Of a DNA stretch of 64,000 bases, positions 26,100 through 51,439 are shown piece after piece. Within the stretch, counting starts at the first letter, position 1. Each line of letters begins with the position of its first letter. This DNA comes from Burkholderia metallica (GTDB lineage Bacteria > Pseudomonadota > Gammaproteobacteria > Burkholderiales > Burkholderiaceae), in contig NZ_CADFDB010000009.1 in NCBI RefSeq assembly GCF_902832845.1, forward strand, positions 124,001 to 188,000, written 5' to 3'. Both the position numbers and the translations under genes were made by a program. The notes under the pieces were generated by a model. It did no database searches. It saw nothing but the letters and a program-made list of their open reading frames with translations, and was not told where the DNA came from.

Positions 26100-27119
26100 C
26101 TATCTCGCGTGTGCTTGCGCGGCGGCGGCGGCGCCCGTGTCGAGCGACGCGGCGCGCAACGCGTCGGCCGGGTCCGGGAAGTCGCGCTGCCGCAATTGCG
26201 CGAGCTGCGCATCGCGCGCGTCGGGCGCGAGCTGCTGCGCGTCGAGCCGCTCGCGTTCGGCCGTGTAGTCGCGATAGCGCGCCTGCCATGCATCGTCGTC
26301 CTGCCGCAGTTGCACGACGCGCGCGGCGACGTCGGCGCCGAGCTGCGCACGCAGTACGTCGGGTTCCGCGCGCTGCGCGTCGAGCCGGGCCACCGTCGCG
26401 ACCGTCTCCCGCTGCCGCGCCAGTTGCTCGCGTGCGTCGCGCAGGCCCGGCGGCAACGACTGATCGAGCGCCGCGAGACGGTCGCGCTTCTGTGCGTCGC
26501 TCAGCGCCGGATCGCGCGCGATCCGGATCCGGTCGAGATCGTCGCGTTGCTGCCGCCATTCGGTACCGAAGAACGGTGTGCTCCAGTCGCCGAGCCAGCG
26601 GCTCGCGAGCATCGCGCGCCGCTCGAGTTCGCCCGCGATCTCGTCCGGATCGAGATTCGCGCCGGTCTGCGCCGCACCCGGCTGCGCGTCGAAAGCGGCA
26701 ACGCACGCGCGATAGCGCGGCCAGACGTCGAGCGCTTCGCGCCGTGCGGCCGCGCCGATCGGCTGCGCGGCGACCTCGCGCGCGACCAGCTCGTCGAGCG
26801 CGGCCGGCGTCAGGTCGTGCTGCGCAAGCAGGAAGTAATCGAAGAAGTCCCGCACCGCATGCACTTTCGCGAGATGGCCGTCCGGCCCGACCGGCAGGCG
26901 CGGCGCACGCGAACCCGCCAGCGACGCCGGCAGCGCGACCTCGGACGCGGCCCGCGCGGGCTGCGGCATCGCGGCGTCGGGCGCCACTGCCGACGGCGGC
27001 AGCGCCACGGCGCGCGGCGGCACGGCTGGCGTACCGAAAGCATGCCACACCGCTGCCGCCGCGATCATGCCCGCGCCGCCGTAGAGCGCCGCGCGAGCCA
27101 GCATCGTCCGGACCGTCAT
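26100..27119 (-). CDS. lifO: Lipase-specific foldase (lipase chaperone)
   Basis: A 339-residue steric chaperone. An N-terminal membrane anchor (MLARAALYGGAGMIAAAAVW) is followed by a Pro/Ala-rich spacer (about 30-65) and the helical foldase domain. The family motif RxxFDY appears as VRDFFDYFLLAQHDLT. RIRIARDPALSDAQKRDRLAAL and the Arg/Gln/Glu-rich long helix follow. Lif proteins sit in the inner membrane and fold the lipase in the periplasm before type II secretion. It begins 3 bp behind the lipase stop, the standard Burkholderia/Pseudomonas arrangement. It is the last gene of the long run. Confidence 0.9.
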   Translation of the reverse strand: MTVRTMLARAALYGGAGMIAAAAVWHAFGTPAVPPRAVALPPSAVAPDAAMPQPARAASEVALPASLAGSRAPRLPVGPDGHLAKVHAVRDFFDYFLLAQHDLTPAALDELVAREVAAQPIGAAARREALDVWPRYRACVAAFDAQPGAAQTGANLDPDEIAGELERRAMLASRWLGDWSTPFFGTEWRQQRDDLDRIRIARDPALSDAQKRDRLAALDQSLPPGLRDAREQLARQRETVATVARLDAQRAEPDVLRAQLGADVAARVVQLRQDDDAWQARYRDYTAERERLDAQQLAPDARDAQLAQLRQRDFPDPADALRAASLDTGAAAAAQAHAR

Positions 27120-27122
27120 CGC

Positions 27123-28241
27123 TCAGACGCCCTGCAGTTTCAGCCGATTCGCATGCACGCGCAGCGCGGCGACCGGATCTTCCGCATAAGCGCCGCGCAG
27201 GCCGAGCAACTGGTTGATCGCGTCGAAGTGGTTCCAGCGGTAGCGGGTCGAGATCACCGTGCCGAACAACGCACTGCACGTGGACGTGAAGCCGTCGTTC
27301 GGCCCCGCACCGGCGAGCGCCATCACGTTGCCGGCCGTCAGGAACATGAGCGTCGACGGGTCCAGCACGTTCACCGGATCGACGACCGGAATCACGCTGG
27401 TGTCGACGGCGCCCGTCACGAGGCCGAGCAGCGACACCGGCTGGTACGCGGCGCCGCTCCACGAATACAGCAGATGCACGTTGCCGCCGATCGTCTCGGC
27501 CGGCGCGCCGGTACGGCACGTGCCCCCGCCGAGTCCCGGACTCGGGAACAGCCGGTTGAACTGCTCGGCGCGGGTCGTGCCGAGCGCGTCGAGCGCGGCG
27601 ATCGCGTCCTGATTCGTGTTGTGCCTGTCGCTGGTCAGGATGCCGAACACATTCAGCAGCGCGCCGAACACGGGCGTCGACAGGCCCGTCGGGTCGAGCT
27701 TCAGCGCGCCGAGCACGAAATCGGCGAACTGCGAGCCGCGGTGCGGCGTCGCGATCGTCGTGACCGACGCGACGAGCGCGGGCGCGACCGACGCCACGTA
27801 GCGCGACGTCAGCCCGCCCTGGCTGTGCCCGATCAGGTTCACCTTGGCCGCGCCCGTGACCGCGAGCACCTGCTTCACGTACGCGAGCAACTGCTCGCCG
27901 CGCCCGTTGGGGCCAAGATCGCTCTGGAACCCCGACAGGTCGGCGACGTAGACCGTCGCGCCATGCCGCTTCAGGTCGGCCTGCATCCCGTACCAGTACG
28001 GCACCACGCCGAAATAGTCGTCGGTGCCGGTCAGGCCGTGCACGAGGATGATCGGATAGCGGGTCGCCGCATAGTCGTCGACCGCGGTATCGGTCACGGT
28101 CTGCGCACCGGCCGGCGGCGCGGCCACGCCAACGCAGGCGAAAAGTGAAGCGGCCAGCACGGCGCGTGACGCAAACCGTGCGCAGGCCCGCGACAGGCGT
28201 CGCGCGGGCGCGACGCGGCGTTCGATGTCGATGTCATGCAT
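27123..28241 (-). CDS. lipA: Secreted triacylglycerol lipase, family I.2
   Basis: A 372-residue lipase closely following the B. cepacia enzyme (364). Signal peptide about 1-46 ([19 protein letters not shown]). Mature part has [18 protein letters not shown], the oxyanion region and nucleophile Ser140 ([15 protein letters not shown]), the Asp region [10 protein letters not shown], and the catalytic His with calcium ligand in [11 protein letters not shown]. The disulphide Cys pair is in GGTCRTG and TSTCSALFG; the end [19 protein letters not shown] is almost invariant. It is made as an inactive chain needing the foldase encoded next. Unusually, it is embedded behind a lipid-synthase and export gene run. 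The start overlaps the upstream DUF4345-like gene by 8 bp. Confidence 0.94.
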
Positions 28242-49760: not shown

Positions 49761-51032
49761 TCAGAGTTTTCCGGTCAGGCTGTACAGCGGCTCTAGCACC
49801 CACTCGTACAGGCGCCTGCGTTCCTGCAGAATGTCCGCCTGCAGCGTCATGCCGGCCTGCAACGGTTGTTTCGCGCCGTACGCGGTCACGTGCTGCGCGT
49901 CGAGCGCGACGATCACGCGATAGAAGGTCGCGTCGCGCTGCTCGCCCGGCGTCGCCGCCGGGCCGCCGTCGTTCGCGAGTTCGGTCGCCGACAGCGCCGT
50001 GCGCGCGATCGACACGACCCTGGCCTCGTACTGGCCGAATTTCTGGTAAGGGAATGCCTGATAGCGGACCAGCACCGGCTCGCCGACCCGCACGAAGCCG
50101 ATCGCCGCGCTCGGCACGAACAGGTGCGCCTGCCAGTGCGCGCCGCCCGGCACGACGCTCGCGAGCGGCCGGGACGTATCGACCGACTGGCCGACGTCGG
50201 CGATCGCGGCCGTCACGATGCCGGCCTCCGGCGCGGTGACGACGATCCGGCGCTTCGCCTCGCTTTCGATCAGGTTCTGGTCGACGTCGATCACGTTGCG
50301 GTCGATCTGCGCGAGCTGGTTCTGCTGCTTGAAGCCGAGCCCCGACAGTTCGTTGCTCGCCTCGGTGAGCGACTGCAGCGTCGATGCGCGATCGCGCAGC
50401 AGCCCGTTCAGCTTCGACTGCTGGTCGAGCAAGTCGGCTTCGCGCTGCTGCGCCTGGTCCTTCGAGATGTAATCCTGCGCGAGCAGCCCGCGATAGCGCT
50501 TCGCGCCGTCGGCCGCGATCGACGTGCGCAGCCGCTGCGCCGCGAGCTGGTCGTCGATTTGCGCGAGCGCGCCTTTCAGGTTCGCGATCTTCGCGCGCAG
50601 CGTGTCGCGCTCGTCCTGTTGCAGGCTGCGCGTCTTGTCCATTTCCGCGAGCAGCGACGCCTTGCGCTGCTGCGCCTGTGCGATCAACGCGGCCTGCGTC
50701 GCGCCCTGGGCCGCGCTTTGCAGGTCGGTCGACACCGTATAGAGCGTCTGTCCGCGGCTCACGTGCTGCCCTTCCTTCACGTCGCGTTCGACGACGATGC
50801 CCGGCTGCAATGCATACACCTTGACCAGCCCCGAATCCGGCATCACCACCCCGGCGACCGTCGTGCGCCGCGTATACGTGCCGAACGTGAAGAACAGCAC
50901 CACGCAGGTCGCCATCACCATCGCCACGACCGTCAGCACGGTCGTCGACAGCGGGTGCACCAGCACGATGTCGCCCAGCACGCGCCTACGTTGCGCCTGT
51001 GCCGCTTCGGAACGAAAGAGACCGAACTCCAT
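49761..51032 (-). CDS. HlyD/CvaA-type membrane-fusion adaptor
   Basis: 423 residues from ATG at 51032 (MEFGLFRSEAAQAQRRRVLGDIVLVHP); a TTG further upstream is less likely. One TM helix (VLTVVAMVMATCVVLFFTFGTY) is followed by the first lipoyl half (VKVYALQPGIVVERDVKEGQHVSRGQTL), a long coiled-coil hairpin (about 110-260, rich in Gln/Ala/Asp), the second lipoyl half (APEAGIVTAAIADVGQSVD) and beta domains. CvaA-like adaptors bridge the exporter and TolC. It is the second gene of the run, 164 bp after the peptide gene. Confidence 0.9.
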   Translation of the reverse strand: MEFGLFRSEAAQAQRRRVLGDIVLVHPLSTTVLTVVAMVMATCVVLFFTFGTYTRRTTVAGVVMPDSGLVKVYALQPGIVVERDVKEGQHVSRGQTLYTVSTDLQSAAQGATQAALIAQAQQRKASLLAEMDKTRSLQQDERDTLRAKIANLKGALAQIDDQLAAQRLRTSIAADGAKRYRGLLAQDYISKDQAQQREADLLDQQSKLNGLLRDRASTLQSLTEASNELSGLGFKQQNQLAQIDRNVIDVDQNLIESEAKRRIVVTAPEAGIVTAAIADVGQSVDTSRPLASVVPGGAHWQAHLFVPSAAIGFVRVGEPVLVRYQAFPYQKFGQYEARVVSIARTALSATELANDGGPAATPGEQRDATFYRVIVALDAQHVTAYGAKQPLQAGMTLQADILQERRRLYEWVLEPLYSLTGKL

Positions 51033-51196
51033 TTTCGCCAACGTATCGCCAAATATCGGAAACGGCGCCCGTCCCGCTTCCACGCGCGGGAACAGCCACA
51101 AGCGATCCGGTATACAAAGAAGACCCGTGCATACCGGATCGTCGGTTCCATCATCGGGAAACGCGGCGTCTACCGCGTTGCCTCAACGCGGGCGTC

Positions 51197-51439
51197 TCAG
51201 TACTGCGGGCCGCCGAACAGGCCGTCCAGCAGGTTCACGGCGGCGGTCGTGATCGTCTCGCCGATGTTGTATGCCTGCTTGACCGGCGCGGCGAAAATGC
51301 CCAGCGTCAGCGTATTGCCGATGTTCTCGGCGGTGCTGCCGGCCCATTCGATGATGTTGCCCAGCGCGGACGGGATGCCCGGGCCGCTGTAGTAGCCGCC
51401 GGAAACTTGTGCGATTTCCTGATGATTCAGTTCTTGCAT
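51197..51439 (-). CDS. Microcin/class II bacteriocin-like precursor peptide with Gly-Gly leader
   Basis: 80 residues from ATG at 51439 with GGAG seven bases upstream. Residues 1-15, MQELNHQEIAQVSGG, are a classical double-glycine leader (acidic/polar with Leu, Ile and Val at regular spacing and GG before the cut). The predicted 65-residue core starts YYSGPGIPSALGNIIEWAG, has no Cys, contains Gly/Ala-rich amphipathic stretches (NIGNTLTLGIFAAP, AAVNLLDGLFGG) and ends GGPQY. It would be cleaved and exported by the PCAT-HlyD-TolC proteins encoded next. An antibacterial role is inferred from class; a signalling or scaffold role is possible. It is too short for reliable homology, but context is strong. 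Confidence 0.82.
   Translation of the reverse strand: MQELNHQEIAQVSGGYYSGPGIPSALGNIIEWAGSTAENIGNTLTLGIFAAPVKQAYNIGETITTAAVNLLDGLFGGPQY

Follow-up and report, generated by a model that had tools for sequence, protein, structure and literature searches.

A PUFA-like lipid synthase locus and its co-occurrence with a Gly-Gly peptide and C39 exporter in Burkholderia

The window analyzed here, a 64,000-nucleotide stretch of the 7.55-Mb genome of Burkholderia metallica, carries a locus of fifteen intact minus-strand genes (51439-26100; no internal stops in the frames read), in which a Gly-Gly-leader peptide gene and its C39 exporter genes directly precede a lipid synthase resembling those for polyunsaturated fatty acids (PUFA), oxidation enzymes, a Lol-like export set and a lipase with its foldase. 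Every synthase-bearing Burkholderia genome of our sample also carries the exporter and the peptide family, including those in which the genes lie at separate sites, and on a Paraburkholderia ginsengisoli plasmid the set is linked in a second arrangement. A preliminary description of the sequence had proposed one combined system that makes an oxidized lipid and a small peptide and moves both through the envelope. The genus-wide co-occurrence and the second linkage speak for this proposal, but the two modules also occur separately. Our preferred reading, to which we give an even chance, is a two-armed system in which an exported oxidized lipid and an exported ribosomal peptide would act jointly.

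Distribution and linkage in Burkholderia

The genus sample comprised 65 Burkholderia genomes, that of the window included. The ketosynthase (KS) was found in 16 of them at 78–100% identity, the next among the matches listed standing at 42%, and in 17 of 398 genomes and 2 of 25 genera of a family-wide sample. The exporter, searched by scoring the best 16 of about 100–190 candidates per genome, was present in 16 of 16 synthase-bearing versus 8 of 49 synthase-free Burkholderia genomes (Fisher p = 1e-9), and the peptide family in 16 of 16 versus 1 of 49 (p = 3e-14), both tests ignoring kinship. The lone synthase-free peptide match, in genome G026, covers the first 31 of 64 model positions, and full-length matches number 0 of 49; in two of the eight synthase-free exporter genomes, G011 and G026, the exporter frame is interrupted by stops. 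A related C39 class taken as a control (48–53% identity) was present in 7 of 16 versus 10 of 49 genomes (p = 0.10). The link between synthase, exporter and peptide thus appears to be more than accidental. The preliminary description had proposed, as its check, a search for co-occurrence in one locus; exporter and synthase co-occur even where the genes are unlinked: these genomes, taken alone, have the exporter and the peptide in 7 of 7 each, against 8 and 1 of the 49.

When some 40 kb surrounding each of the 16 loci were compared (15 relatives and the window), two arrangements emerged. At nine loci the genes for the peptide, HlyD, C39 and TolC stand directly before the gene for the acyltransferase–acyl carrier protein (AT-ACP), and the foldase and a Crp-like gene follow the lipase. 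The block order is kept in nine Burkholderia genomes, the window's included, always with the peptide first and with differing upstream neighbors. Since the same order recurs in eight other species genomes, it is not due to chance. In the unrooted synthase tree, a 100/100 branch separates these nine linked loci from the others. The remaining seven genomes carry the C39 exporter at other loci, as do the eight synthase-free ones, at 73–83% identity; in G017, G021, G035 and G052, KS and exporter are on different megabase contigs. At the 19 unlinked exporter loci, of which one is an additional copy from the linked genome G054, C39 is accompanied by HlyD and TolC, truncated at some loci by the contig end, and a synthase gene was found in none of the stretches taken.

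A second linkage was observed in the finished genome of P. ginsengisoli, where the set lies on a 214-kb plasmid (NZ_CP066077.1; loci L292 and L293). The order there is peptide, AT-ACP, the main synthase protein (ER-KS-CLF-KR-DH, for enoyl reductase, KS, chain-length factor, ketoreductase and dehydratase), P450-KR, flavin monooxygenase (FMO), LolD, FtsX, LolA, barrel, DUF4345, phosphopantetheinyl transferase, lipase, foldase, HlyD, C39 and TolC; HlyD spans the start of the plasmid record and was read from the other P. ginsengisoli locus sequence. The island is flanked by IS110 and IS6 genes on the peptide side and by IS66, IS21 and IS6 genes beyond TolC; within it, an incomplete gene table lists no further gene. 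The plasmid peptide aligns end to end with the window peptide (54%). The plasmid C39 groups with the unlinked exporters, a lineage other than that of the window clade, and a single origin of the linked exporters was rejected (approximately unbiased (AU) test, p = 0.0032 under LG+G4). Exporters of two lineages therefore came to lie beside the synthase. Plasmid searches for further synthase or peptide carriers returned the P. ginsengisoli plasmid only; its insertion-sequence-flanked island is a possible vehicle for spread.

Two features of the unlinked loci are recorded here in passing. Upstream of the synthase in G021 (L055) are genes for a squalene-hopene cyclase, an MMPL-family protein and MlaA, and open reading frames (ORFs) of similar size, compared with G021 by size only, precede the synthase locus in G017, G024, G038 and G052. 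A phosphopantetheinyl transferase gene lies between DUF4345 and lipase in G021 (L054:3139-3903), as in P. ginsengisoli (L292); in the window clade DUF4345 and lipase adjoin without it.

Synthase loci beyond the genus and the export genes

A scan with two short patterns, not exhaustive and missing some Burkholderia known from the genus sample, returned at least 44 synthase loci, 15 proteobacterial and 29 actinobacterial; carriers include B. cepacia LK29, B. seminalis, B. puraquae, B. territorii and B. singularis. With some loci cut short, the 29 actinobacterial loci contain a P450 match in 25 cases (one of them upstream and at just 33%), an FMO match in nine, and HlyD, TolC, the peptide and a close C39 in none. 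Because the P450 recurs at 25 of 29 loci, its step would belong to the synthase core.

The export genes are distributed differently. FtsX matches were found at 12 of 15 proteobacterial versus 0 of 29 actinobacterial loci and LolA matches at 8 of 15 versus 0 of 29, some loci being cut by the flank, and LolD-like matches at 14 of 15 versus 4 of 29, the latter at 26–42% identity. This pattern suggests that the FtsX and LolA genes export the synthase product in hosts with an outer membrane; if two-membrane export is indeed their role, their absence from the actinobacterial loci is expected. The permease scores 57 bits against the LolC/E model, far under the cut-off of 362, and the P. ginsengisoli LolD counterpart is annotated 'ABC transporter ATP-binding protein'. 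A LolA-superfamily carrier, as in LolCDE-LolA sorting, is present, and a GxSxG lipase followed by a Lipase_chap foldase reproduces the LipA-Lif order. Each of the nine linked genomes has one or two foldases elsewhere besides that of the locus; the seven loci without it are in genomes that each have one foldase elsewhere. The synthase loci of P. ginsengisoli, P. antibiotica and P. sejongensis also include a foldase.

Gene products of the locus, the peptide family and its palindrome

The features of the window are collected in Table 1. As the preliminary description had stated, the fifteen genes share one strand and are tightly spaced, with a largest intergenic gap of 164 bp (peptide to HlyD) and six gene overlaps. 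Pfam backs its family calls for 13 of the 15 products. For the 'hotdog' at the C terminus of the P450 protein, the evidence is a PKS_DH_N match below threshold (E 0.11). The ACP match is marginal (20.9 versus a Pfam cut-off of 20.8). Neither the peptide nor the barrel candidate reached the cut-off of any family in Pfam or further family-model scans, and Rfam gave no match at gathering score within the window. Motifs that mark active KS, AT, ACP, DH, P450 and lipase proteins are all present in the products, and the FMO carries FxGxxxHxxxY, which we take to be the flavin monooxygenase fingerprint.

Table 1 Features of the fifteen-gene locus, in positions of the window
Feature	Position	Strand	Remarks
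Gly-Gly-leader peptide gene, 80 aa	51197..51439	-	Opens the block; leader MQELNHQEIAQVSGG, mature part YYSGPGIPS...
21-nt palindrome directly upstream of peptide start	51461..51481	-	Also ahead of family peptide genes in relatives
HlyD-type membrane fusion protein	49761..51032	-	PF13437, PF16576
C39-peptidase ABC exporter	47530..49749	-	PF03412, PF00664, PF00005
TolC-type outer membrane channel	46099..47529	-	Pfam OEP; 3' end overlaps AT-ACP gene by 19 bp
AT-ACP, acyltransferase with single ACP	44513..46117	-	Pfam Acyl_transf_1; motifs GHSFG, GIDSV
FabL-like ER-KS-CLF-KR-DH, 2010 aa	38404..44436	-	Pfam and motifs
P450-KR-dehydratase-like (hotdog) protein	34379..38407	-	Pfam P450, KR; haem motif FGGGMRKCIG
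Flavin monooxygenase (FMO)	32951..34360	-	Pfam FMO-like; fingerprint FxGxxxHxxxY
LolD-like ABC ATPase	32238..32954	-	Pfam ABC_tran; name LolD taken from sequence
FtsX/LolC-E/MacB-type permease	30832..32241	-	Pfam FtsX
LolA-superfamily periplasmic carrier	30001..30780	-	Pfam LolA_like; solved relative NE2245, 3buu
Putative outer-membrane barrel	28667..30004	-	No family match; barrel read from sequence
DUF4345 small protein	28234..28650	-	Pfam DUF4345
Lipase, Burkholderia lipase family	27123..28241	-	Family match, GxSxG
Lipase foldase	26100..27119	-	Lipase_chap; second copy besides one elsewhere in genome

The one point in favor of co-transcription, which would join the exporter and synthase genes, is the overlap of the TolC and AT-ACP genes, seen by match coordinates in seven of the eight relatives compared as well. 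For G037 (B. seminalis), the remaining relative, the AT-ACP match falls into two pieces in different frames (residues 1-229 and 232-534), so that the gene is broken or mis-sequenced. Promoter-like sites (0 found, 0.9 expected) and terminator-like sites (4 found, 5.0 expected) between 44000 and 52300 are weak evidence either way.

The synthase contains the KS motifs TACSSS, HATGT and NKSLVGH, followed on the same protein by a CLF, read from the sequence as a second KS-like domain without the active Cys and with DAGHAS at that site; the His that replaces the Cys is invariant across the 16 loci. KS and CLF on a type I multidomain protein are a Pfa-type feature. Pfa systems further have PfaA, built as KS-MAT-ACPn-KR, and an ER of the PfaD type. 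Against the PfaA model the window protein scores 320 bits, below the cut-off of 1010, and the ER here is FabL-like (251 bits, below the FabL cut-off of 328). Searches of the open-access literature, with subscription papers outside their scope, yielded no paper on this architecture.

On the peptide side, a Gly-Gly leader, a C39 ABC exporter, HlyD and TolC are present together, as in class II microcins. The mature parts are hydrophobic and variable, with 49-79 residues, and the nine compared contain no Cys and no conserved Lys. Bacteriocin family models gave sub-threshold matches only, the best being MccV for the P. ginsengisoli peptide (E 0.046). A search for an immunity gene found none: within 730 bp upstream of the peptide, no candidate ORF is open in all nine linked genomes, and on the other side the spacing to HlyD is only 164 bp. 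The fifteen products include no peptide acyltransferase (GNAT-type or other), nonribosomal peptide synthetase (NRPS), sensor or receptor. The preliminary description had also suggested an 'acylated microcin'; this idea finds no support, because neither a peptide acyltransferase nor an immunity gene was found, and the peptides have no Cys or conserved Lys.

A leader-type peptide was recognized upstream of the exporter at the five loci of the far (unlinked) clade whose upstream sequence is long enough, at a second far-clade copy (G017b) and at G054b, G016a and G026, and is doubtful or not seen at the remaining unlinked exporter loci. Recognizable peptides beside the exporter in synthase-free genomes have other mature parts. 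In G021, G017 and G035 (L106, L107 and L108) a tandem pair of Gly-Gly peptide genes precedes the unlinked exporter, recalling two-peptide bacteriocins. Extra palindrome-marked peptide genes at other sites of genomes matched to B. singularis, sp. TSV86 and WS-FJ9 (L254, L257, L258, L259, L276) make up a small repertoire per genome.

The conserved palindrome before the peptide genes is a new observation of this analysis. The pattern TGCYAGATGGGYYATCTRGCA was located at 20 distinct peptide-gene sites, that of P. ginsengisoli among them; it precedes the start by 16-21 nt at 19 of these and by 11 nt at one. At up to three mismatches the window contains one match, and 0 of 100 shuffles contain any. 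Exact core matches were found in 14 of 16 synthase-bearing versus 0 of 49 other Burkholderia genomes, the pattern having been derived from the same genomes in which it was counted; G030 and G037, the two without an exact match, have the core with one mismatch, as do 9 of 49 synthase-free genomes, and a reversed control pattern matched in 7 of 65. Pairing reaches 93%, and slid controls stay at or below 44%. Support from covariation is weak: a single pair changed on both sides, a count reached by 465 of 500 shuffles, and 11 of 17 rows leave the outermost positions unpaired. In G054 and G016, variants of the element stand ahead of genes for another class of peptide, so the palindrome belongs to the peptide and exporter side; no copy was found where the synthase genes of the unlinked clade begin, and other shared motifs were not systematically searched there. 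It could be either an RNA hairpin or a DNA operator, and probably tunes peptide expression.

Interpretation and relation to known systems

In the two-armed reading, whose lipid chemistry and structure, transport direction and route, activity and joint action are all predictions from sequence, the iterative PUFA-like synthase would build a long acyl chain on the single ACP, and the P450 and FMO would oxidize it. Extraction of the lipid from the inner membrane would fall to LolD/FtsX and its passage over the periplasm to the LolA-like carrier, and the barrel-like protein would place it into or past the outer membrane, where the dedicated secreted lipase with its foldase may trim or transfer it. 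In the other arm, a hydrophobic, Cys-free peptide of about 50-80 residues would be made with its Gly-Gly leader, then cut and exported by C39/HlyD/TolC. Peptide and oxidized lipid would meet extracellularly or at the outer membrane, as a peptide–lipid complex or as paired antagonistic agents, and no single enzyme would join them covalently. A stricter form, in which the type I-exported ribosomal peptide and the Lol-route oxidized lipid are obligate partners of a bipartite natural product, joined or complexed after export, is one we hold only tentatively and consider rather unlikely.

Several observations weigh against a joint system. The preliminary description had counted separate occurrence of the modules against its single combined locus, and 7 of 16 Burkholderia synthase loci indeed extend from AT-ACP to lipase only, with the exporter at another site. 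A single ancestral fifteen-gene pathway was accordingly rejected, the exporter having its own history; the separate occurrence of synthase and exporter indicates two modules. Of six further proteobacterial genomes that carry the synthase, five (P. sp. LEh10, P. sejongensis, P. antibiotica, Burkholderia sp. SRS-W-2-2016 and Methylocapsa aurea) show no exporter above 31% identity and no peptide; P. ginsengisoli is the sixth. No peptide was found in the synthase-bearing actinobacteria tested, Kitasatospora purpeofusca and Nocardia seriolae, and in all one of eight genomes searched outside the genus sample has it; the lipid arm is therefore independent of the peptide there. Nor is the export arm universal, since the LEh10 and Methylocapsa stretches examined contain no FtsX or LolA (a LolD-like match only, in the Methylocapsa downstream stretch). 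Part of the 16 of 16 for the peptide arises by construction, because the nine rows of the model are all synthase-bearing (eight from the genus sample, one P. ginsengisoli); the 0 of 49 full-length matches is unaffected. The strict YY/SIFD-type peptide is present in 14 of the 16; the other two, G017 and G021, have only the tandem pair, with a mature part no nearer the strict kind than other glycine-rich peptides. Co-occurrence within the linked clade is partly mechanical, and independent events are few because the seven unlinked synthases stand together on one side of the 100/100 branch. In favor of a joint system, the synthase is patchily distributed on an rpoB tree of 64 genomes (G053, with no rpoB match, is omitted), with at least five changes on supported branches, and over 200 pairings the peptide follows the synthase in all 5 of 5 independent pairs. 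The exporter follows it in 3 to 5 of the 5, with no pair going the opposite way for either; the sign test has a floor of p = 0.0625. The two exporter lineages would be explained by two separate associations or by one old association with later exporter replacement, the latter counting against the joint reading.

A rival explanation is two unrelated cassettes, in which a bacteriocin-type exporter operon landed before or behind the lipid synthase and shares its promoter while each works alone; we regard it as a serious competitor of clearly less than even probability. It is favored by the exporter without synthase in 8 of 49 genomes, with its other mature peptides, by the synthase without exporter in other genera, and by the setting of the P. 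ginsengisoli island amid insertion sequences, which gather genes. It accounts poorly for the co-occurrence in 16 of 16 genomes, seven of them unlinked, for the linkage of exporters of two lineages, for the lack of an intact conserved upstream ORF fit as a peptide immunity gene, and for a plasmid island without other annotated genes inside.

An improbable variant is a ribosomal lipopeptide, the synthase product acylating the peptide with the lipase or AT as transferase. The lipase, like the peptide, would be expected to be extracellular, and hybrids of polyketide synthase products and ribosomal peptides, lipolanthines and goadvionins, are described in the available part of PMC9505594; against it stand the missing acyltransferase, the variable mature region and the absence of Cys and conserved Lys from the nine mature peptides. 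We give even less credence to the peptide as a signal whose accumulation controls the lipid operon. The peptide is first in the block with a palindrome ahead and a conserved leader, and a Crp-like regulator gene follows the block; yet mature parts of variable sequence and 49-79 residues are long for a signal, the fifteen products include no sensor or receptor, and the start of the synthase genes in the unlinked clade yielded no palindrome.

Joint action of lipid and peptide, our preferred reading, can be set beside several known systems. Lol sorting and LipA-Lif likewise have an ABC ATPase, an FtsX permease and a LolA-superfamily carrier, or a lipase-foldase pair; here a single permease is weakly like LolC/E, and the foldase is a second genome copy. 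The FtsX and LolA genes, which in the scan accompany the synthase at Gram-negative loci only, would make it possible to test whether LolA-like carriers move non-lipoprotein lipids. Class II microcins such as MccV are exported by CvaA/CvaB/TolC and share the Gly-Gly leader, C39 exporter, HlyD adaptor and TolC; they differ in that our peptides match no family above cut-off, have no immunity gene found and are tied to a lipid synthase. The Caulobacter surface-associated bacteriocin consists of two proteins and is not known to involve a lipid synthase. The part of PMC5380434 consulted describes these as small hydrophobic secreted proteins at the cell surface, which our peptides resemble.

The Pfa/secondary lipid synthases, which include PfaA-E, heterocyst glycolipid and Azotobacter type P enzymes in the excerpt of Shulse and Allen 2011 (PMC3098273), combine KS-CLF with AT, ACP, KR, DH and ER functions, as the present synthase does; the word Burkholderia is absent from that paper. 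Unlike Pfa synthases, the Burkholderia enzyme has a FabL-like ER fused before KS-CLF-KR-DH, a separate single AT-ACP and a P450-KR-DH-like fusion. If the pairing is functional, the product of this lipid synthase, widespread from Burkholderia to Streptomyces and Nocardia, and its recognizable peptide family become searchable, and a new way of combining a ribosomal peptide with a polyketide-type lipid would be at hand. Lipolanthines, goadvionins and selidamides also combine a ribosomal peptide with a long acyl chain, but, in the available part of PMC9505594, by means of an acyl transfer enzyme, of which none was found here. Zeamines, fabclavines and megapolipeptins, PUFA-synthase hybrids with members in Burkholderiales according to the portion of PMC13291983 at hand, join a PUFA-like chain to a peptide that is made by NRPS, whereas the peptide here is ribosomal and separately exported. 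If the bipartite reading is true, the Burkholderia locus would encode the ribosomal counterpart of these NRPS-PUFA hybrids.

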